Positions 2,525-18,413 of a stretch of 22,123 nucleotides of DNA are shown here, in pieces. Within the stretch, counting starts at the first letter, position 1. The number at the start of each line of letters is the position of its first letter. The DNA is taken from positions 1-22,123 of the IMG/VR virus record IMGVR_UViG_3300044631_000255; one strand, given 5' to 3'. A program made the translations under genes and the position numbers. The notes under the pieces were generated by a model. That model saw nothing but the letters and a program-made list of their open reading frames with translations, searched no databases and was not told where the DNA came from. The stretch is from a virus.

Positions 2525-5500
2525 TTAAACAAATTGAACTTCTTTCCAAGCCGTACCGTTATGAAAATATAGTTTGTTTGAGACTACGCATAAAGCACCG
2601 GAAATGGCTCCCGTAGTTGGAAGAGATCCACTTGCATTGATATACAACGGTGCTGATGTTGTCCCACCGTAAAAAGCACCACCGAAATAACTTGTAGATC
2701 GGCCTTCTACGCCAACGCCACTTGCGGCGGTTGCATTGCCCTTGACTCCGATACCAGACGTTCCCGTAGCTTCACCAAACACACCGTCGCCCGTGGTTGT
2801 TTTTCCGTAAACACCATCGCCGCCAGCAGTAGATTCACCAAAAACACCGGCTCCCGTGGCGCTTTTTCCCGTCACGGCAATTGTCGACCCAAGATTGGTA
2901 ATTACCATATAACCAAGCGAAGCATAAATTTCTGTCCGCAGGTTATTGCTTGAGTCGTAACCCTTTAGTGCATTGTCTGAGCTGGCGTTAAGCGTGAATC
3001 GAGCGCCGCTAGTACCCGTCTGAAATGCAGATCCCGTTATCGTTCCACCGCTAACAGTTAAATTTGCACCATCCCATTTAATAGAATTTGTTGAGTTTCC
3101 TATACTAAATTTGTACGCGGCTCCACTGTATCCAAGAAAGAAGCCTGTCCCCGTGTCATAACCCGTCTGACCACCTCTGATATAACCAGTTGTATCCGTA
3201 ATAAAACCAGTGCCAGTTATAGTTCCGCCAGTGACAGTTAAATTTGCACCATCCCATTTAACAGAATTAGTTGAGTTGCCTATGCTGAACTTGTACGCAG
3301 TTCCGCTATATCCAAGAAAGAAACCTGTCCCGGTGTCGTAACCCGTCTGACCGCCTCTAACGTAACCGGTTGTGTCCGTAACAAAACCCGCGCCAGTTAC
3401 AGTGCCGCCAGTAACCGTAAGATTTGTACCGTCCCACTTTATTGAATTGGTTGCATTACCAAAAGAAAATTTATAAGCGCCAGCGCTATAGCCCAAGAAA
3501 AATCCTGTGCCAGTTGCATAACCTGTTTGCCCTCCAAGGATATAACCAGTGGTTCCAACAGTAAGAACATCATTGACTGTCAAGGCTCCAGTGTTGACTG
3601 AGACGGCTGAAAGAGCGCCTACTTTCAAACTTGATATGTAGGGCGTTGACCATACAGAATTAGTCCCGTTGTAAATACCATCGCTTTGATATAACGAATT
3701 GTTACTCGACGGATCGGGGTCGGTTGCATACCAAGTAACCGCAAAAGAAGCACCCCAGACAGCAGAAGATTGCGCTGACGAAGGGCGATTGTCGCCAACC
3801 ACAGTAACATTTCCGCTAACCGGAACTGGATTGCTCGCAATCCTTGCGTACATGATTCTAGCCTGAGCACCGGTGGCTCCGGTGGCCCCATTGGTTCCCG
3901 CGTATCCTTCAACCAAAATTGAAGCGCCTGTCCAATTTATGGTTGATGTTGTAGTGGACCCGGCGGCAATTAAGTTAACTGTGGCTGCATAAAGGTTATA
4001 GCCACCAGCAGGGGGAGATCCTGGAGTTAAGTACCAATCTGCCGGAGCTGGAAAAGTGGCAGTCGACCATGTAAATAATGTGCTGCCAGAAATAGCGGGG
4101 GTTGAAAGATCCCATCGGTAAACTTTTGGGTACGCATATTTCACACCGTCCGCGCCCGTCGGTCCCATATCTCCGTTTGCGCTCAAGGCATAAACAGAGA
4201 AACCGGTTGCCCAACTTACAGTTGTCGTCGTAGCGGTAGCAACATCTGAAATTGATTTAGAAGCAACCCACAGTTTTATGCTGGAGGTTCCTGGGTTTGC
4301 TGGAACAGTCACTTGCCAATAGTTGCCACCGGTGTAACCAGAATTGGTAAGACTAGACCAAGTAAACGTTGAAGAACCTGATGGGTTTCCTGGTTGCGCC
4401 GCAGCCCATTGATAAAGAAAAACCGTGGCGGATTTGTCGCCAGATACCCCCGTCGGACCAACACCGCCGGAGGCTCCCGTAGGCCCCACACCTCCCGTCG
4501 GCCCAATACCTCCTGTCGGTCCAATGCCTCCTGTCGGACCAACGCCTCCCGTCGGGCCGTTGGGCCCAATTGGACCCGTGGGCCCGACTCCCGTCGGCCC
4601 AGTTGCACCAGAGGGAACTTTGGTGAGCGTAAAAGTTTTATCAATGTAACCCGTTGCAGTAGTTCCTCTGAACGTACATGACGCTTGCGTTTGAGTGCCG
4701 GTAAGCGAAAGCGAACTAACTGAAATAGTTCCTGTTGTTAAACCAATAGTGGCGGAACATCCAGAACTTGAAATCAATGAAAACGACACATCAGGATATG
4801 CAAGAACAGCACCGTTTTCATAAACCGTCATTTGATTGGAGACCGGAAACTGACCGCTTATGACCGTGTAGTTTGCGTCGTTTAAGCAAGAAATATTGAT
4901 AAACGATTTGGCTAATTCAGCGGTTACGCCAGACCCGTTGTAAGTTTTGTTAATTAAAAGCTGTCGATCAAAAGTCGTAGTCGAAGTTCCGCTTGTAATA
5001 GTGGCTCGAAAAATGGCAGAGGCCGATTGCACTGCTTGAGCGACAGCAGTAACTGTAATTACGCCTGTAGTGCTATTTATCGAAGTCGTGCAGTTAGTCT
5101 CTGATACTTTTGTAAATGCAACCGCTGGCGTTGTAACCAGAGAAGCTCCGTCGTAAACAACATAAGTCGTTGTCCACGGTAGTTGACCTGTTACTAAAAC
5201 ACCATCTGGGTCGGCGGTAAAGCTCTTAGAAGCTATTAAGATGTAAGCTGTTAGCGCTGAATAAGGTTGCCAAACAAATGATGCGCTTGTTGAGGATCGT
5301 ACAGCCGCGTATTCGTTACCAGCAACAAATTGAAAATAATAGGTATTTGCGGCTAATTGTAGTTTTGTAAAGGTAAACGTTGATGAGTTTGTAAATGCTT
5401 GACCATTGATTAGATTTTGAGTTGCTAGCTCAACCCAATCTGTTGCCGATGGAGTGGCTGAAGTGGTCACAAATAATTTTAAATAAGTGACTCTTCCAAC

Positions 5501-7084
5501 CGAAGGAATAGTGCAATCAACGTCAAAAGTTGCCGGCGAAGCAAAGGGAAGTTTATTAGTTACAGTTGGAGCGTTTGCGGCTGAAATATATTCGGCAGCG
5601 GATAGTTGCGAATTTGGAGCCGCCGAAAATGCTGTGATGCTAGCGTCATCATAAACTTGAACGTTGTATTCAGACAGCTCTAGCGTCGCGCCTAAATTGC
5701 CATCATCAATTGTCGCTTCCGAAACTTTCATCACCCGGAAAAGTTTGTTAGTCCATCCGTAATCGGCATTAGTAATATCAACAACATCACCAGCGTCTAC
5801 TTGAATACCGGGATAGGTAGAAGTTATCGTAACGATCAAATCTTCACGCGCTTGCTCTAACCTTCGATTTCCAAGATATTGAGCTTGTACAGAGTCATTT
5901 GTAAATTCAAGCGTTGTTGACTGTCTGTTAGCGGGTTCGTTTGCATAAAGCTGCCCCGCTGGAGTCTCCATAAAAACCAGATCCGGCTGATCTCGATTTA
6001 ACTTTGATGGAAACTCAATCTGAATTTGGTTAATTTGCTGATTGATGTCTACAGCAGAAACCCTAATTTCGCCGATAAGATTTGTGTCGTTAAATGAGAA
6101 CGAAGAAGTTTCTGCCTTATTGATGACAACCGACCATTTGCCTGATGCCGCGTTGTATGCCATCCAACTGTCGCAACATTCCAGCATCTTCTCAACGTTA
6201 TCCAGAACGGTCTTGCCCGTGTCTACAACACCGTTAATCCTGTATCGAGCCTGTGTCGCAGATCCGCCACCAGATGGCGTATAAGTAATTGTCTGATCGG
6301 AGTAGGTATTAAGAGCGGCAGCGCTTACAGAATCAACCAAACCCGTCATGCCAGCGCCATATCTCGCGTCGGTCATGTAGTCATACCAAACATCTCCAGG
6401 CTTTGCGACGCTGCCGCCTTTAGGATAATGCTTACAGTAAAACGTAATTGGCTGAAGCCCAGTGGTTCCAGCATCTGTGTTGTAGTTGAGTTTGACAATT
6501 GCAAAAGCCAACCCGTTCATCTGCCGACCAGAAGAGGGCCAGCGTAAAGCGGCTGAAATGTCTGCACCGCCCATAAATACATGCGGGGCCGTTCCGTTTA
6601 CTGGGGTTATAGCTCCTGCATTTGTTGATGTGTAGAGACTGATATAAAGATTGCCGCTGATCTTTGTGTCTACATTTCCATCGCCATCAGTAAGAGAAAC
6701 AACTTTTGTTTGGTCGGTTCCGTCGAACGTAACCAATCTGTCGCCGTAGTAAAACTTTGTACGGTCATAGGAAAATGTTGCGGAGGCGTCGGACGATATG
6801 GAAGAGATCGCCATAACGTAATACATTGTCTTTTGATCGGTGGATAGCACCGCGTCGACAAACGTACCGCCCAACCACGCGTCGCCATACACCACGGGAA
6901 TTGAGTTGTTGTTAGCAGGAGGAACTTGCTGTCTTGCACCTGTATCTTGAGACTGCGGAGGCTTAGATCCAAATGCCCTGGTAACAACAAACGACACCGC
7001 AAAGTTGATGGCAAACGTCGCCGCTGCCAACGCAACGCCCGTTAACTGAACACCTACTGCGGCTAAGATAATGGATGCTGGCAT
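2525..7084 (-). CDS. J-like central tail tip / host-specificity protein with collagen and tandem repeats
   Basis: This 1519-residue protein is the largest in the window and sits at the end of the tail-tip cluster, where lambda-type phages place J. It begins with a hydrophobic segment (residues 1-40), then a hub-like region of about 500 residues. YGDAWLGGTFVDAVL, DVWYDYMTDARYGAGM and the later region holding DVVDITNADYGW resemble J/tail-tip proteins. A beta-domain appears twice in tandem at about 615-820. Collagen-like GPTG repeats occupy 826-882 and smaller Gly-X-Y hinges (GPTGADG, GTNGATGATG) separate further beta-domains. Three 60-residue repeats lie at 1178-1357. The C-terminus has GVFGES/GVYGKT-type repeats and ends with a KLYFHNGTAWKEV motif typical of fibre ends. 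Start ATG has a GAGAGTA site upstream. It probably combines tail closure, a stalk and receptor binding in one chain; the receptor is unknown. Confidence 0.88.
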   Translation of the reverse strand: MPASIILAAVGVQLTGVALAAATFAINFAVSFVVTRAFGSKPPQSQDTGARQQVPPANNNSIPVVYGDAWLGGTFVDAVLSTDQKTMYYVMAISSISSDASATFSYDRTKFYYGDRLVTFDGTDQTKVVSLTDGDGNVDTKISGNLYISLYTSTNAGAITPVNGTAPHVFMGGADISAALRWPSSGRQMNGLAFAIVKLNYNTDAGTTGLQPITFYCKHYPKGGSVAKPGDVWYDYMTDARYGAGMTGLVDSVSAAALNTYSDQTITYTPSGGGSATQARYRINGVVDTGKTVLDNVEKMLECCDSWMAYNAASGKWSVVINKAETSSFSFNDTNLIGEIRVSAVDINQQINQIQIEFPSKLNRDQPDLVFMETPAGQLYANEPANRQSTTLEFTNDSVQAQYLGNRRLEQAREDLIVTITSTYPGIQVDAGDVVDITNADYGWTNKLFRVMKVSEATIDDGNLGATLELSEYNVQVYDDASITAFSAAPNSQLSAAEYISAANAPTVTNKLPFASPATFDVDCTIPSVGRVTYLKLFVTTSATPSATDWVELATQNLINGQAFTNSSTFTFTKLQLAANTYYFQFVAGNEYAAVRSSTSASFVWQPYSALTAYILIASKSFTADPDGVLVTGQLPWTTTYVVYDGASLVTTPAVAFTKVSETNCTTSINSTTGVITVTAVAQAVQSASAIFRATITSGTSTTTFDRQLLINKTYNGSGVTAELAKSFINISCLNDANYTVISGQFPVSNQMTVYENGAVLAYPDVSFSLISSSGCSATIGLTTGTISVSSLSLTGTQTQASCTFRGTTATGYIDKTFTLTKVPSGATGPTGVGPTGPIGPNGPTGGVGPTGGIGPTGGIGPTGGVGPTGASGGVGPTGVSGDKSATVFLYQWAAAQPGNPSGSSTFTWSSLTNSGYTGGNYWQVTVPANPGTSSIKLWVASKSISDVATATTTTVSWATGFSVYALSANGDMGPTGADGVKYAYPKVYRWDLSTPAISGSTLFTWSTATFPAPADWYLTPGSPPAGGYNLYAATVNLIAAGSTTTSTINWTGASILVEGYAGTNGATGATGAQARIMYARIASNPVPVSGNVTVVGDNRPSSAQSSAVWGASFAVTWYATDPDPSSNNSLYQSDGIYNGTNSVWSTPYISSLKVGALSAVSVNTGALTVNDVLTVGTTGYILGGQTGYATGTGFFLGYSAGAYKFSFGNATNSIKWDGTNLTVTGGTVTGAGFVTDTTGYVRGGQTGYDTGTGFFLGYSGTAYKFSIGNSTNSVKWDGANLTVTGGTITGTGFITDTTGYIRGGQTGYDTGTGFFLGYSGAAYKFSIGNSTNSIKWDGANLTVSGGTITGSAFQTGTSGARFTLNASSDNALKGYDSSNNLRTEIYASLGYMVITNLGSTIAVTGKSATGAGVFGESTAGGDGVYGKTTTGDGVFGEATGTSGIGVKGNATAASGVGVEGRSTSYFGGAFYGGTTSAPLYINASGSLPTTGAISGALCVVSNKLYFHNGTAWKEVQFV
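3014..3553 (-). repeat. Three tandem 180-bp repeats inside the J-like gene
   Basis: Units at 3553-3374, 3373-3194 and 3193-3014 each encode 60 residues with the shared core GGQTGY, GTGFFLGYS, YKFS, GN-TNS-KWDG and NLTV-GGT-TG. The second and third units are most alike at DNA level and the first is more divergent. The length is an exact multiple of 3, so gain or loss of a unit would keep the frame. The likely structure is a repetitive beta shaft in the receptor-binding portion. Confidence 0.9.
4491..4562 (-). repeat. Four tandem 18-bp repeats encoding collagen-like GPTGGV/I
   Basis: Four 18-bp units begin at 4491, 4509, 4527 and 4545, each a variant of CCTCCYGTCGGNCCAATR (plus strand), the last diverging at its end. 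Each encodes a six-residue Gly-rich unit of the collagen-like segment. Frame-preserving unit length makes copy-number slippage likely to be tolerated. The wider Gly-X-Y region spans about 4440-4609. Confidence 0.85.
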
Positions 7085-12218: not shown

Positions 12219-12690
12219 ATTGATTGCCTCGCGGATGAATCGTAAAAGTAACCTGAGCTTCTGCGCCAGGGGCTGGGTCAATCGTCCACTGACTAACGCG
12301 GCCATTGAAGGCATAGTTAACGATGTTTGTGCCATCTGTCGCCGAAATTACAAACGTACGGTCAATCGTACCGTTGTAAGCATCTGCGCGGAGCAAAAGA
12401 AGGTTTGTGTCTGCCGGATTCCATGCGGCCACAACAGTCATAGAAGTTGGTGCAGATTGAACCGGAATCTTGTCAGACTGACGCGAACCAGCGACAGCAA
12501 AGTTAGCTACCGCATCGTCTTGACCAAACGCCGGAATTGCTTCTACTGGTACAAGCTGAGCAGAAACCGCAATCGCAGAGGTTGAAGCATAGACGCTAAG
12601 GTTAGCGGTAGTTAAAGGAGTTGGAGTAGCCCCCGGCTGGCAATATAGCGAGGCGCTGAAGCCGGGTAAAACTTTATTAGGAAGAGCCAT
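12196..12690 (-). CDS. Major tail (tube) protein
   Basis: The 164-residue product has the size and beta-rich composition of a siphovirus tail tube subunit: PGFSASLYCQPGATP, alternating strands, MTVVAAWNPADTNLLLLRADAYNGTIDRTFVIS, and a final VNYAFNGRVSQWTIDPAPGAEAQVTFTIHPRG. The terminal phrase (strand, short turn, strand describing a change relative to a reference value) recalls lambda gpV-like tube proteins. It follows the tail-completion gene after 8 bases, with GTGAGGTG as ribosome site, and it is the only gene in the tail module with this profile. It is expected to polymerise as hexamer rings around the tape measure protein, assisted by the G/GT chaperones. No extra C-terminal Ig-like domain is present. 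The assignment is by position and fold appearance. Confidence 0.75.
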   Translation of the reverse strand: MALPNKVLPGFSASLYCQPGATPTPLTTANLSVYASTSAIAVSAQLVPVEAIPAFGQDDAVANFAVAGSRQSDKIPVQSAPTSMTVVAAWNPADTNLLLLRADAYNGTIDRTFVISATDGTNIVNYAFNGRVSQWTIDPAPGAEAQVTFTIHPRGNQYGWSNNT

Positions 12691-12698
12691 TTTTCACC

Positions 12699-13103
12699 TC
12701 ACGAAGGAATGTCTAAAGTTGAATCTAAAACAATCTGGTGTAGCTTGCTGTCATTATCGTATGTGTGGAAAAGCCAATCAACGTCAACTTTTGCCACAAA
12801 AAATAATCCGCCGAACGTCCCTTTATAGCCATGCAGGGCATCGACAATTTGCTGAGCTTTCGAGTAACAGTTAGCCATTTGCTGAGCAAAAACCGTCGCT
12901 TGAAAGACAGGTCGATCTATACCCTTAACTGATTGCGGACCGGTATAAACTGGCTGATGCACATCTCTTAGCTGCCAAGTTACAAAAGTCGGCTCGGTTG
13001 CAAAGTTGCGATTAAACACCGCATACACCGGAGTCGGCGTACAAACAGTATTTAGCTGCGCCTGTATCGCCTGGGCATAGGTAACGGCTGAATTCTGACC
13101 CAT
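12699..13103 (-). CDS. Tail completion / tail terminator-like protein (DUF3168-like)
   Basis: The 134-residue product starts at a TGATG overlap with the head-tail joining gene. It opens with a helix (VTYAQAIQAQLNTV), then PVYAVFNRNFATEPTFVTWQLRDV, a QATVFAQQMANCYSKAQQIVDAL helix-strand region and a C-terminal VDVDWLFHTYDNDSKLHQIVLDSTL. This matches the general plan of small tail terminator proteins that cap the tube at its head-proximal end: a variable loop, a strand naming the input range and a central helix that follows AQQ or similar. It directly precedes the tail tube gene, as in many HK97-like phages. The family resemblance is moderate and the DUF3168 name is from recall. Confidence 0.65.
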   Translation of the reverse strand: MGQNSAVTYAQAIQAQLNTVCTPTPVYAVFNRNFATEPTFVTWQLRDVHQPVYTGPQSVKGIDRPVFQATVFAQQMANCYSKAQQIVDALHGYKGTFGGLFFVAKVDVDWLFHTYDNDSKLHQIVLDSTLDIPS

Positions 13104-13444
13104 CAGACTGCAACCGTTGGTTCGTTACGGTAGCAAGTGAACGTCACCCACTGCCTATCGTCGTGCTCGTAAACCTCAGCGATGCGCCAAGATTTTTCAC
13201 GGAAAGAAATACTGTAAGCCTCTTGAGCGTCCGAGATTGTACGCATGTTGGGCGTGTAGTTCACAGTGAACTCAATCATGTTGTCGTATTGCCGAAACTT
13301 CTCAAGCGTCCGAATGCGGTTATGCACAGACTTTGTTTTTGCTCGCGTTTGAAACCACGCAGTTTCTGTCGTTGTTTGCTCGCCAAGATTGGTAAGCCCA
13401 AACGTCAGATTGTTTATCGTGATTTGATCAACGCGTAAAACCAT
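13103..13444 (-). CDS. Head-tail joining (head closure) protein
   Basis: I chose the ATG at 13444, which forms a TAATG overlap with the homing endonuclease stop and yields 113 residues; an in-frame start at 13474 would lie inside the endonuclease gene. The product has the usual head-closure plan: an N-terminal strand pair (RVDQITINNLTFG), ETAWFQTRAKTKSVHNRIRTLEKFRQYD, a FTVNYTPNMRTISDAQEAYSIS stretch, then SWRIAEVYEHDDRQWVTFTCYRN, typical of head-tail joining proteins (HK97 gp7 / SPP1 gp16 type). It probably closes the portal channel below the gp6-like connector. In the ancestral arrangement it would have followed the connector directly through the same TAATG junction. Confidence 0.72.
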   Translation of the reverse strand: MVLRVDQITINNLTFGLTNLGEQTTTETAWFQTRAKTKSVHNRIRTLEKFRQYDNMIEFTVNYTPNMRTISDAQEAYSISFREKSWRIAEVYEHDDRQWVTFTCYRNEPTVAV

Positions 13445-13454
13445 TACATCACCA
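13442..13454 (-). repeat. 13-bp direct repeat, downstream side of the homing endonuclease
   Basis: The minus strand reads TGGTGATGTAATG, identical to 14065-14077. It encodes the last codons of the endonuclease and the TAATG stop/start junction to the head-tail joining gene. The conserved context extends to AC..TGGTGATGTAATG.TTTTA on both sides. The two copies are 623 bases apart. Confidence 0.85.
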
Positions 13455-14067
13455 GCGTCATTGTTTTGATCCAAGCGTATTTGCCGGATCTTTTTGTCGA
13501 AGCCAAAAGATAAGCCAAGGAACCCGTTGGTATATGAAGCTGTTCGCTAGCCGATTTCCAGCTTGGGTAAATAACTCCATTTATTTCAATCTTCTGAAAT
13601 TTCTTCTCAGATATTTTTCTCTTGGTTTCAATTGATAACACTTTACCTAAATTGGCTTTCCTGCACTTTTCCTTTACTTCATCTTTATGCTTTTTACCTA
13701 GCATTCCGCTTACCCGGCCAACCAAAGCGGCGCATCGCTTTTTCAAATGCTCATCAGATTGTTTTATGCCTTTAAGATGCGATCCACCAGAATAACCGCC
13801 TATCGCTAAATTCCAACCTATTTTAGGTTGAAATCTAAGTTTTTTTTCAATTTCGGCGCAGTAATCTTTACTTCCTATTAAGACAATCTGTTTGATTAAA
13901 TTTTCCCATCCGTACTTACGGATAACCTTATAAATAACTTCATTGCCGCTTTTTTTAGCACAGGAGCGATGAGCAAACATCCTTTGATTGAAATTATTAG
14001 CAATGCCAACATATCCTTGACTAAATATGTCAGTGTGCTCTGGCAGTCTAATCCAATATAAAAACAT
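13444..14067 (-). CDS. GIY-YIG homing endonuclease with NUMOD motifs
   Basis: The 207-residue product has a GIY-YIG nuclease domain at 1-95 with a degenerate first motif (LYW at 3-5), YVG at 19-21, Arg29 and His33, AEIEKK around 71-76 containing the metal-binding glutamate, and GWNLAIGG at 84-91. DNA-binding modules follow: a NUMOD3-like segment around 121-142 (GKKHKDEVKEKCRKANLGK) and a NUMOD1-like segment at 160-201 (INGVIYPSWKSASEQLHIP). It begins and ends at TAATG junctions between two head genes. Its composition differs from its neighbours: 21 G+C in bases 13621-13680 against 28 G+C in bases 14161-14220 of the connector gene. Such nucleases cut a target lacking the gene and drive their own spread. 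The last codons (TLVM, stop) copy the end of the connector gene. It is intact; activity is not shown. Confidence 0.88.
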   Translation of the reverse strand: MFLYWIRLPEHTDIFSQGYVGIANNFNQRMFAHRSCAKKSGNEVIYKVIRKYGWENLIKQIVLIGSKDYCAEIEKKLRFQPKIGWNLAIGGYSGGSHLKGIKQSDEHLKKRCAALVGRVSGMLGKKHKDEVKEKCRKANLGKVLSIETKRKISEKKFQKIEINGVIYPSWKSASEQLHIPTGSLAYLLASTKRSGKYAWIKTMTLVM

Positions 14068-14077
14068 TACATCACCA
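14065..14077 (-). repeat. 13-bp direct repeat, upstream side of the homing endonuclease
   Basis: The minus strand reads TGGTGATGTAATG, identical to 13442-13454. Here it holds the end of the gp6-like connector gene and its TAATG junction to the endonuclease start. The pair brackets the inserted gene precisely and preserves both neighbouring reading frames. Confidence 0.85.
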
Positions 14078-14711
14078 AAGTGCGGTAAGGTCGCAATAAC
14101 TGGTCAATCGCCCACGGTAGCTGATACTGCTTAGCCTCGGAGATTGCAGAGCGATTGTTGTAGAAATGCGTGAGCAACATTAAGCCGGCTTGCTTAACTA
14201 CGGGATACTGACCGATAACGCTGCCCTGTAGTGTGTACTGGCAAAGCATCGGGGCGGTCATGTAAGTGTTAACGTTATTGGGAACCTCGAAAAGAACTAA
14301 CTTATTTCCCGTTGGGTCGTAGTAATACTGGGAGCTTGCAATCGTCGTAAGAACCGGAGGGTTTAGGTCGTTGTAATACTTGACCCAGTTGATCGTCACG
14401 CCGTTCTGCGAGACCTCGGGAAGATCTAGCGAAACCGGAGCCGCCATTAAACCCGAGATTAAATAAGAAGCCTGATACGTCACATTGAAAATTGGAACGC
14501 CTAAGTAATCCTCAATTGCCATTCGCGCTGCCAGCTCAAGCTGCGACAAAAACTCGTCTTGCGACTCATCGGCAAACAAATTGAGCTGATTGGTGATTTC
14601 GTCGAGCGTAAGCCATTGAGTAACCGGGTCGCGGTTACTCTGAATGACCTTCGAGTAGTTGAACGGGTTACGCGAACCCGCTCCGAAATTACCTTGCAGT
14701 TGGCTTGGCAT
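14067..14711 (-). CDS. gp6-like head-tail connector (adaptor) protein
   Basis: The 214-residue product has the helical N-terminal plan of HK97 gp6-type adaptors: VTQWLTLDEITNQLNLFADESQDEFLSQLELAARMAIEDYLG, then a beta-rich centre, a PTGNKLVLFEVP strand and a C-terminal helix (VKQAGLMLLTHFYNNRSAI). Adaptors of this type form a ring under the portal and prepare it for the head closure protein. The gene starts one base after the stop of the capsid paralogue, with a GGAACC site upstream. It ends at TAATG, shared with the start of the homing endonuclease, which separates it from its natural partner gene. Assignment is strong. Confidence 0.85.
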   Translation of the reverse strand: MPSQLQGNFGAGSRNPFNYSKVIQSNRDPVTQWLTLDEITNQLNLFADESQDEFLSQLELAARMAIEDYLGVPIFNVTYQASYLISGLMAAPVSLDLPEVSQNGVTINWVKYYNDLNPPVLTTIASSQYYYDPTGNKLVLFEVPNNVNTYMTAPMLCQYTLQGSVIGQYPVVKQAGLMLLTHFYNNRSAISEAKQYQLPWAIDQLLRPYRTLVM

Positions 14712-14712
14712 G

Positions 14713-15741
14713 TTAGGTTCCGATCAAACGAACGCCAGCGGTTACATCACGAACAGTCGAGACCAAACGCTTTTCCGCGTAGATCGTGATTGTCCCAGGC
14801 TGCGTCTGCTCCATGCGTTGCAACGTCATTTCTGAGTGGTCAACGATCCACATAAACCGAGGCCAGTTGGCTAGGTAAATGGGAGAAGCGCCGACAGCGG
14901 GAGCATCCAAATAGGGATTGGCAATAACCGGCCACCCCATGATGTTTACAGCAGGGCCTTCGCCTTCTTCGCCGGTTTCAACAAGCGCGTAAGAATTGCC
15001 GCCGTGCGTGTATTTCCTAAGCGTCTGGATCGCCGTGGGGTGCATCATCCACGCCGTTCCTGGCATCTTCCAAAACTGCCCAGGAAGAGCGTTAGCAACA
15101 TCCACAAGGGTTTCCCACTCAATGCCGCCAGCATGAGCATAGCCGACCGTGTTAAGCGTATGAATGCCGTTTGTAATCGCGGTTCCTGAGCTGCCATAAG
15201 CCGCCGTAGAACCCGCTGTTCCCGCGTACATCTTAAGACCGCGCAAGCCGTTAGTTGCGCCTGTGCTTGTCGTTGTCGATCCTGCTTGGTCGTTATTGAT
15301 CGCCATAGACGCGGCTTCGATCTGGCTAAATTCCATTGCAAGATCTTCGGCCAAAGCTGCATCTAGACCATTAATGTCATCCATTGCCGCTGCGCGGATA
15401 GGCATCTGAGCGCTAATAACGCGCATTGGAAGCTGCCAAATGCTCGTGGCAATGTTGGGAGATCCGCTGTTAGCGTTTACTGTGTAACCCCAAGGGTTTG
15501 TAGAGTTAGCCGCGTTACCGGTCTTAACAACAAACTGAATATCCGAATCCGAGGTCATCGTCTGGTTAGCGTAAACCCGGAAAGGGTTCCAATAGCGCAG
15601 ACTTGCAAATACATCTTCGTTATAGACGCGGCCACCAACGCCGGAGCCCGAGCCCGTGAGGGCTGAGGCTTCAGCGAGGTTCACCGTGGCTTTGCCCTCG
15701 TGGAGAGCCTGCTTAAGCCCTTCTAAAATCACCTGTTTCAT
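14713..15741 (-). CDS. Second HK97-fold capsid protein, paralogue without delta domain
   Basis: The 342-residue product aligns along its length with the capsid protein encoded just upstream, from residue 24 (EASALTGSG against EASALTASG at about residue 107 of that protein) to the C-terminus. In ATSIWQ..DDINGL, 18 of 29 positions are identical by eye, and NNDQ, GLRGL, YAG, NGIH/NGLH and the final VRD..AGVR are shared. It lacks the coiled-coil scaffold region and most of the protease-processed N-terminus; its start lies near the mature end of the other protein. It could be a vertex, minor capsid or decoration-like subunit that co-assembles with the main shell, comparable in principle to the T4 gp23/gp24 pair, or a redundant copy. 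A GGAGAGA site precedes the ATG at 15741. The frame is intact. Confidence 0.85.
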   Translation of the reverse strand: MKQVILEGLKQALHEGKATVNLAEASALTGSGSGVGGRVYNEDVFASLRYWNPFRVYANQTMTSDSDIQFVVKTGNAANSTNPWGYTVNANSGSPNIATSIWQLPMRVISAQMPIRAAAMDDINGLDAALAEDLAMEFSQIEAASMAINNDQAGSTTTSTGATNGLRGLKMYAGTAGSTAAYGSSGTAITNGIHTLNTVGYAHAGGIEWETLVDVANALPGQFWKMPGTAWMMHPTAIQTLRKYTHGGNSYALVETGEEGEGPAVNIMGWPVIANPYLDAPAVGASPIYLANWPRFMWIVDHSEMTLQRMEQTQPGTITIYAEKRLVSTVRDVTAGVRLIGT

Positions 15742-15780: not shown

Positions 15781-17130
15781 TTAAGCCGCAGTGCCGGTCG
15801 AGCGATAACGTACGCCAGCGTTTGGATCGCGCACAGAAGTTGCTGCGCGAGTCTCGCCGTAGAACGTGATCGAGCCTGGGAGCGTCTGGTCATAACGACG
15901 CAGAACCATGCTTAGACGCATAACGATGGTATGAAACTGCTGGAAGTCAGCAAAGTACATTGGGTAGTAAGACGTCGTACCTGCCGCGCCGGTTGTGGGC
16001 TGAGAAGGATTGTCAACGTACTTGTTAACCACAACGTCAAAACCAAGCAGCTTACCAACGATGCCATCGTCACGGCTCAGACCGTCGATGTAGATTGGGC
16101 GCTTCTGATCATCAACCAAACCACGGATGCCCTGCAACAAGATTGGGTTAATCATGAAGCGAGCAGTCGGGGTCCAGTATTGCTGCGGCAAGCTGTAGAT
16201 GAAGTTAACAACGTCTTTATAAACGATGTTATTTGCACCGACAGTGTTTGCGTTGGTGGTCAACTGGTCATAGGTTGCAAGGCTATGCAGACCGTTCGTG
16301 GTTGCGGTTCCCGAGGTTCCAAAAGCAGCCGTGGAAACTGTACCGCCCGTGTAGGTTGCATTTGCGCCCGCATACTGATCCAAACCGCGCAGACCATCAG
16401 CGCCGCCCGTCGACACCGAGGTTCCGGTTCCGCTCTGATCGTTGTTCTGGATCATCGAGGTTGCCATTGCCTGCTGGAATTCCATCAGCATGTCGTCAAC
16501 AACGTTGGGCTCAAGACCATCAATATCGTCGAGCGCAGCAGTACGGATTGGGAACTGTGCGTTCAAGTCTTTAAGGATCACCTGCCAAATCGACGTTGCT
16601 TCAGTCGTGGATGCGCCGTTGTTCTGAACCGTGTAGCCCCACTGAGCACCAGCGTTGCCGGTCTTTACGCGAAACTGATAAGCGGAACCGTCAGTTGCAA
16701 CAATGCGAGAAATATTCATCATCGGATTGCCAAGACGCTTAGCGGCAAACACAGGATCGTAAGCGGTACGGCCACCAACGTCGTAACCAGAAGCGGTAAG
16801 CGCAGATGCTTCTTTGATATACCCGTCGAACTGATCGACCGATTCAAAGATCTTTACTTCGCGCTCAACCTGATTGCCACCCTTCATGTACTCTTTGAGC
16901 ACATCACGGAAGCGGCGGTTTGCCTCACCACGAACAGTCTTGTGGATTGGGCGAATGATCGAAGGAGCGGCAATCTTTGCCTCAAGAGCGGCAAGTTTTT
17001 GCTCGGTTTCTGCTTTGACTGCCTGAACAGCTTCGGTGACTTGAGTCTTTACGGCCTCGGCGGTCTCAGCAAGTTTTGCAGCGTTAGATGCTTCGATTGC
17101 ATCAAGTTTTTCAATGACTTTTTCAAGCAT
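15781..17130 (-). CDS. Major capsid protein, HK97 fold, with N-terminal scaffold domain
   Basis: The 449-residue product starts at an ATG with AAAGGAAC upstream (overlapping the protease stop). Residues 1-55 form an alanine-, lysine- and glutamate-rich coiled coil, the delta or scaffold domain removed by the prohead protease. A linker follows (about 56-106, with IRPIHKTVRGEANRRFRDVLKEYMKGG), then the HK97-fold body from EASALTASGYDVGGR to the end with FRVKTGNAG, GLRGLDQYAG, FMINPILLQGIRG and FYGETRAATSVRDPNAGVR. The cleavage site probably falls between 60 and 106 but cannot be fixed from sequence. The protein builds the icosahedral shell; neighbouring protease and portal genes complete the standard HK97-like block. 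It is followed by a paralogue lacking the delta domain. Confidence 0.93.
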   Translation of the reverse strand: MLEKVIEKLDAIEASNAAKLAETAEAVKTQVTEAVQAVKAETEQKLAALEAKIAAPSIIRPIHKTVRGEANRRFRDVLKEYMKGGNQVEREVKIFESVDQFDGYIKEASALTASGYDVGGRTAYDPVFAAKRLGNPMMNISRIVATDGSAYQFRVKTGNAGAQWGYTVQNNGASTTEATSIWQVILKDLNAQFPIRTAALDDIDGLEPNVVDDMLMEFQQAMATSMIQNNDQSGTGTSVSTGGADGLRGLDQYAGANATYTGGTVSTAAFGTSGTATTNGLHSLATYDQLTTNANTVGANNIVYKDVVNFIYSLPQQYWTPTARFMINPILLQGIRGLVDDQKRPIYIDGLSRDDGIVGKLLGFDVVVNKYVDNPSQPTTGAAGTTSYYPMYFADFQQFHTIVMRLSMVLRRYDQTLPGSITFYGETRAATSVRDPNAGVRYRSTGTAA

Positions 17131-17909: not shown

Positions 17910-18413
17910 TCACATAAACCTAAATGGTGAACCAACCGAGCTTCTTTCCAGTATTCGCTGCGCCGAATGGAGCATCACATCGTCTACATTTGCTGGCATC
18001 AAATTCATTTCCTGTATGACTGCTGGCGGCGATTGATACCACTGCATAATTTTCTCAACCGTCCCTTTAGACCTCTCACGCGCTCTTTCTAAGCAAACCT
18101 CCAAACCTGGATCAATTAAAACAAACTCAACGCGTCGGTTTCTGTAAAGCGCAATGTTTTCTTGTTTAGGGCTTGTGTCGATAATATAAGCATCCGATTT
18201 TAAGCCTTGAAATATTCTTCGTATTGCAGCCTCTCTTACAGCAAAAGCCACTTCTCTTATGTCGCCGGTTGATCTATGGCTAACCATCGAACCAAGCGCT
18301 TTAGCTAACGAATCAAAATCGACAACTACATCATCCGGTCCACGCACTTTCTTTATATAAGTGCTTTTGCCTGAGCAGGGAGCGCCAATAACTACTTTAA
18401 CTTTTCCGCTCAT
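17910..18413 (-). CDS. P-loop kinase-like ATPase (AAA_33/polynucleotide kinase-like)
   Basis: The 167-residue product begins with a strand and Walker A loop, GAPCSGKST at residues 10-18. VVVDFDSLAKALG follows, then a helical lid region (DIREVAFAVREAAIRRIFQG), the strand DAYIIDTSP, the strand VEFVLIDPG and the RARERSKGTVEKIMQWYQSPP helix, which carries arginines typical of nucleotide kinase lids. It looks like the small P-loop kinases (Zeta toxin / polynucleotide kinase superfamily) seen in some phage packaging regions. Substrate cannot be told: a DNA or RNA 5' end, a nucleotide or a protein are all possible. The ATG at 18413 lies inside the short upstream ORF (17-base overlap), and the gene ends 7 bases before the protease. 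A standard head-assembly role for such kinases is not known to me. Confidence 0.8.
   Translation of the reverse strand: MSGKVKVVIGAPCSGKSTYIKKVRGPDDVVVDFDSLAKALGSMVSHRSTGDIREVAFAVREAAIRRIFQGLKSDAYIIDTSPKQENIALYRNRRVEFVLIDPGLEVCLERARERSKGTVEKIMQWYQSPPAVIQEMNLMPANVDDVMLHSAQRILERSSVGSPFRFM

Follow-up and report, generated by a model that had tools for sequence, protein, structure and literature searches.

The window analysed here, a 22,123-nt stretch of viral DNA, carries a predicted homing endonuclease gene between two virion genes, all on the minus strand. The gene order is connector, nuclease, and head-closure, with a one-base TAATG overlap at both junctions, and the same short repeat covers each overlap.

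14067–14711, minus strand: connector, or head-tail adaptor (gp6-like), matching PHROG_40, PHROG_442, and PF05135; C-terminus ...YRTLVM
13444–14067, minus strand: GIY-YIG/NUMOD3 homing endonuclease gene, 207 aa, matching PHROG_314, TIGR01453, NUMOD3, and an I-TevI-like model; C-terminus ...KTMTLVM
13103–13444, minus strand: head-closure/head-completion gene, ATG at 13444, N-terminus MVLRVD; PF05521 at E 3e-4, under the curated cut-off
14065–14077, minus strand: upstream 13-bp copy, with connector tail LVM, stop TAA, and nuclease ATG; imperfect similarity over 14059–14081 (20/23)
13442–13454, minus strand: downstream 13-bp copy, with nuclease tail LVM, stop TAA, and head-closure ATG; imperfect similarity over 13436–13458

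Elsewhere in the window, two neighbouring genes (14713–15741 and 15781–17130) each match the major capsid family (Phage_capsid), and a P-loop kinase/AAA-like gene with conflicting PHROG labels (17910–18413) lies between the portal and the protease/capsid region. The long tail gene (2525–7084) contains 180-base direct repeats at about 3050–3530.

The nuclease and the repeat

The nuclease protein matches the PHROG_314 homing endonucleases (2.8e-21), and both TIGR01453 (group I intron endonuclease) and NUMOD3 match above their cut-offs; the Pfam GIY-YIG model scores 17.7 bits, under its 22.6 cut-off, and a profile match to 1mk0 has an E of 0.0078. In a structure model with a mean pLDDT of 84.9, residues 1–93 align with the I-TevI catalytic domain, i.e. 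a GIY-YIG fold (1mk0/1ln0, Z 10.9/10.2 over 85–88 residues), and the last 57 (residues 151–207) with the DNA-binding domain of I-TevI (Z 6.5). These domain matches came from realignment, the Foldseek search with the whole model being weak (best E 0.043). Y19, R29, E74, and N86 are invariant among 36 nuclease relatives, and Y4 is nearly so. On sequence and modelling, the fold, catalytic residues, DNA-binding region, and presence/absence polymorphism identify the protein as a GIY-YIG homing endonuclease, with NUMOD3 and the I-TevI-like domain forming a separate region predicted to bind DNA.

I-TevI itself, the GIY-YIG endonuclease of a T4 group I intron, has these catalytic and DNA-binding folds, the NUMOD3 region, and the catalytic residues in common with the window's nuclease. 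A group I intron-encoded enzyme was nevertheless rejected here: an Rfam scan of 12500–15000 gave no match with E up to 1, TIGR01453 hits nothing but the protein, and the ORF fills the insert.

As the preliminary description reported, TGGTGATGTAATG occurs in 2 exact copies spaced 623 bp apart (13442–13454 and 14065–14077, both minus strand). Their register is nonrandom, with each copy covering the last codons, the stop, and the overlapping ATG of consecutive genes. A third exact copy is found nowhere in the 22,123-nt window, and sites with up to 2 mismatches number 3, vs 0.46 expected. Exact repeated 13-mers are not rare in 22 kb (the window has about a dozen), so the length of the repeat alone is little proof. 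When mismatches are allowed, the copies are similar at 20/23 bases (ACTTTGGTGATGTAATGTTTTTA / ACGCTGGTGATGTAATGGTTTTA), which takes in Thr/Leu codons and TTTTA past the start, and their differences outside the 13-mer fit different native alleles (ACTTTG vs ACGCTG). The insert is also AT-richer than its flanks, as described before, with a G+C of 0.374 vs 0.49/0.47 in the neighbour genes.

Empty and occupied junctions among relatives

A search of IMG/VR with the connector protein gave 80 loci, and 76 of these have no nuclease, the connector being followed by head-closure or the contig ending just past such a junction. The nuclease is absent from most relatives, and head-closure adjoins the connector directly in the empty ones. 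Connector identity in empty relatives reaches 100%, and about 30 of them are at 98–100% of amino acids. The preliminary description had predicted that deletion between the repeats would restore a direct junction, and this fusion, (T/C)TGGTGATG-T(A/G)A-TGG, is present in 63 of the 76. For example, the empty relative L034 reads GACCTTACCGCACTTTGGTGATG-TAA-TGGTTTTACGCG, equal to the collapsed window sequence over GACCTTACCGCACTTTGGTGATGTAATGGTTTTACGCG, and the isolate P19250A is also empty, with the junction TTGGTGATGTAAATGG. The empty relatives likewise show that the nuclease gene is seated exactly in this junction, as had been proposed, and that neither neighbour loses its end.

In a second junction allele, the spacer is 7–8 bases long (TGAGCACAAAATG) and the codons of the connector tail are rewritten (L031, L041–L046, L069, L071, L074, L075, L077, and L079; also L179–L180, L190, L193, and others). 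Because its tail codings reappear in occupied phages with a nuclease of the window's type (type 1), this allele may be target-resistant or may be the trace of a lost nuclease.

With 76 empty and several occupied relatives, the connector/head-closure junction is polymorphic at a fixed site. The insert of L001 is shared with the window (99.8% identity over 6.9 kb). At the same junction, L049/L050/L052 have a nuclease 68% identical to the window's, and L091 has one at 55%, its connector tail having drifted to LVF; further relatives lie there in L081, L090, L092, L093, L169, L192, L328, L330, L332, and L333. Type-1 nucleases at this junction span 48–68% identity to the window's. The nuclease tails of the window, L049, L081, and L091 read (T/S/N)LVM and are encoded with CTGGTGATG. 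Given that this tail is common to nucleases only 55–68% identical, we infer that the tail copy is older than the window's insertion and was inherited with the gene. As such, the recent target duplication claimed earlier is not supported in that form: the insertion in the window's lineage may be fairly recent, but the duplication is not fresh.

Between L081, an error-rich contig, and the window, identity is about 98% in the nuclease but only about 89% in the left flank and 80% in the right; this difference suggests that the gene moved between diverged phages. Relative to the empty L004, divergence of the window rises from 0.7% to 16% at position −187.

14068–14253, minus strand: left flank unlike L004, a probable co-converted tract, with 29 mismatches in 186 bp vs 15 in the preceding 2232 bp

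Connector codon changes in this tract are synonymous in 24 cases and nonsynonymous in 1. The breakpoint at −187 fits co-conversion, although these phages are mosaic and general phage mosaicism could mimic it, and no near-identical empty relative that would give a co-conversion border was found for the right flank. Together, the presence/absence polymorphism and the flank replacement suggest homing.

A second nuclease (MFYTYAH...) is seated at the same junction in L186, L400–L404, L411, L493, and the group L415/L416/L417/L423/L429. It matches PHROG_314 too, but its similarity to the window's nuclease is confined to residues 122–206 (51%). Specifically, the protein encoded at this site in L186 (2906–3433) and its relatives L400–L411 has a different catalytic N-terminus, joined to a DNA-binding C-terminus that is homologous. 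Tails of this type are LVM, RVM, or SVL and carry, ahead of the head-closure start, GGTGATG or a close variant; the connector tail has no GGTGATG. The empty L418 and the filled L416/L417 are near-identical over several hundred bases, the left flank as far as −18 and the right flank starting at −10 of head-closure. The connector ends with AAA CCT TTG GTG CTG TAA in L418 and with AAG CCA CTT GTT CTT TAG in L416/L417, all of these changes being synonymous, and the native GGTGCTGTAA stays beside head-closure as the end of the nuclease. As judged from these alignments, the insert of L416/L417 entered the last connector codons, head-closure kept the native end, and the connector got a substitute. 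Since upstream GGTGATG is missing from the second type and from most members of type 1, the L418 case may follow another route than the window's.

Nuclease relatives also lie close between genes at 30 junctions elsewhere, all in other phages: within 4 nt of the upstream gene in 20 cases and of the downstream gene in 22. A general copying of neighbour ends by these relatives was rejected by permutation over the 30 junctions (P = 0.36–0.87). The exception is Methylophilales phage MEP301 (L087:3968–4549), whose gp20 nuclease shares its first 9 residues, MASIKLQGD, with the downstream gene. There, gp20 begins MASIKLQGDTS and gp19, which follows it, MASIKLQGDVS; the two stretches show synonymous differences, and a TAATG overlap lies on either side of gp20. 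No close empty site was found among relatives of the MEP301 downstream gene, the best of which has 43% identity.

The connector tail as a probable start signal

In two clades, GGTGATG is present in 118 of 118 empty junctions with at most 1 base between the connector stop and the head-closure ATG, GTG being the only codon used there for the valine, and in 0 of 28 with a spacer of at least 7 bases (codons there are GTA, GTC, ATT, ATC, and ATA); sequences within a clade are related, so these counts are not independent events. Each of the two clades contains the spaced state, as does a third set of greater diversity, in which a few tight junctions deviate (GGTACTG, GGTAATG). At the 16S 3′ end, AUCACC is complementary to GGTGAT, with a computed duplex of −9.1 kcal/mol vs about −4 in spaced junctions. 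Based on this conservation and pairing, the connector tail is a probable Shine–Dalgarno of head-closure—i.e. the last connector codons (YTG GTG ATG) most likely double as its ribosome-binding signal. The window has the motif twice.

14071–14076, minus strand: GGTGAT in the connector's last codons, probable Shine–Dalgarno of the nuclease (anti-SD pairing)
13448–13453, minus strand: GGTGAT in the nuclease's last codons, probable Shine–Dalgarno of head-closure (anti-SD duplex −9.1 kcal/mol; tight/spaced contrast)

From their sequence, the best reading of the two copies is that a translation-initiation region was duplicated along with the connector tail and that both are functionally constrained. 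By using a copy of the stop/start signal, the nuclease would borrow the translational coupling of the junction, in line with the earlier proposal. GGTGATG precedes both nuclease and head-closure in the window, L049, and L081; the remaining occupied junctions mostly have the strong signal before head-closure only, which makes the exact repeat a trait of the window's subgroup. What occupied junctions have in general is a predicted head-closure start signal held within the last codons of the nuclease.

Origin of the insert and its parallels

Our main reading, to which we assign a probability of roughly 0.8, is that a free-standing GIY-YIG homing endonuclease gene sits in the connector/head-closure overlap and was inherited with a doubled initiation signal and connector tail. 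Because the connector tail is very probably the Shine–Dalgarno of head-closure, an insertion would be tolerated only if this signal stays beside head-closure and the connector is still supplied with an end. The right copy is the nuclease's own last codons and probably bears the initiation signal of head-closure, and the left copy terminates the connector and supplies a signal of this kind for the nuclease start. The C-terminal I-TevI-like domain presumably recognizes the junction region. During mixed infection, the nuclease would cut empty genomes, and repair from the occupied genome would copy the gene together with part of its flanks. Both repeat copies would pass down with the occupied allele and not be remade at each insertion, and its probable origin is an insertion within the last connector codons that doubled the tail.

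A transposon-like jump, in which a staggered cut and fill-in recently made a fresh 13-bp target-site duplication, would also leave two exact copies around the insert and an empty junction that equals removal between them. We consider this very improbable. The copies differ just outside the 13-mer in the manner of different native alleles, the same tail is found at the same site in the 55–68% identical nucleases, the I-TevI stagger is 2 nt (cuts at 23 and 25 nt; PMC2988022), and there is no transposase in the insert and no repeat at other occupied junctions. It is also unlikely that the gene inserted just before or after the junction with no duplication and that selection for a strong initiation signal produced the second copy. 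GGTGATG is indeed strongly constrained when the start is adjacent, nuclease tails at other junctions bear unrelated Shine–Dalgarno sequences, and type-1 members, L090 for instance, use AAGGAAGTG. However, the 20/23 similarity, with its Thr/Leu codons and the TTTTA after the start, exceeds any Shine–Dalgarno, and the L418/L416 comparison directly shows a nuclease tail at this site that is the native connector end.

A nuclease that now serves the phage, for example by excluding competitors or by setting head-closure dosage, would explain why the coupling is preserved. Its ORF and catalytic residues are intact, two nuclease types have long persisted at the junction, and homing endonucleases can help their phage, as reported for SegB (PMC13096335). 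We give this little credence, as most relatives lack the nuclease and an island of nuclease identity between diverged phages is what is expected of a mobile parasite.

A free-standing homing endonuclease is a known kind of element, of which the window's is, in comparison with open-access full texts only, an unusual form. Free-standing endonucleases often cut far from their own location (PMC2988022). The seg/mob endonucleases of T4, especially mobE, are also stand-alone genes between two phage genes, and mobE is the nearest parallel for coupling: its start overlaps the nrdA stop (UAAUGA), translational coupling has been proposed, and its flanks are co-converted (PMC2988022). mobE is an HNH enzyme, however, whereas the window's is GIY-YIG, and that account of mobE reports no downstream initiation signal that is doubled or held in the last codons of the nuclease.

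For substitute C-termini, the nearest parallel is found in fungal mitochondrial mobile ORFs (Allomyces atp6; Glomus atp6, atp9, cox2, and nad3; PMC3630166), where the insert brings a replacement 3′ end with synonymous differences and the native end is kept beyond it. The fungal cases involve long C-terminal pieces in organelles (PMC3630166), compared with 3–5 codons in the phage. Unlike in the fungi, the native end retained in the phage is still the predicted start signal of the next gene, and a direct view of this is given by the second nuclease type only. Homing endonuclease genes at boundaries of genetic exchange in phages also lie near essential structural genes, as here (PMC10448857), a study that contains no analysis of junction duplication or start signals.

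These observations raise the prospect, on which we put even odds, of a class of phage homing endonucleases specialized for stop/start junctions. Its members would insert in the last codons of the upstream gene, give that gene a new end (often synonymously rewritten and no longer a target), and keep the native end and Shine–Dalgarno as their own C-terminus, with the DNA-binding domain kept and the catalytic domain exchanged. Because the two nucleases described here differ in their catalytic parts but agree in DNA-binding part, junction, and tail, target choice by the DNA-binding domain is directly testable, and the junction offers many natural empty/filled pairs. More broadly, an operon of essential virion genes that is translationally coupled and has no gaps can take in a selfish gene with no visible damage to the neighbours, and a structural gene can, as these junctions suggest, have its last codons fixed by the signal for the next gene.
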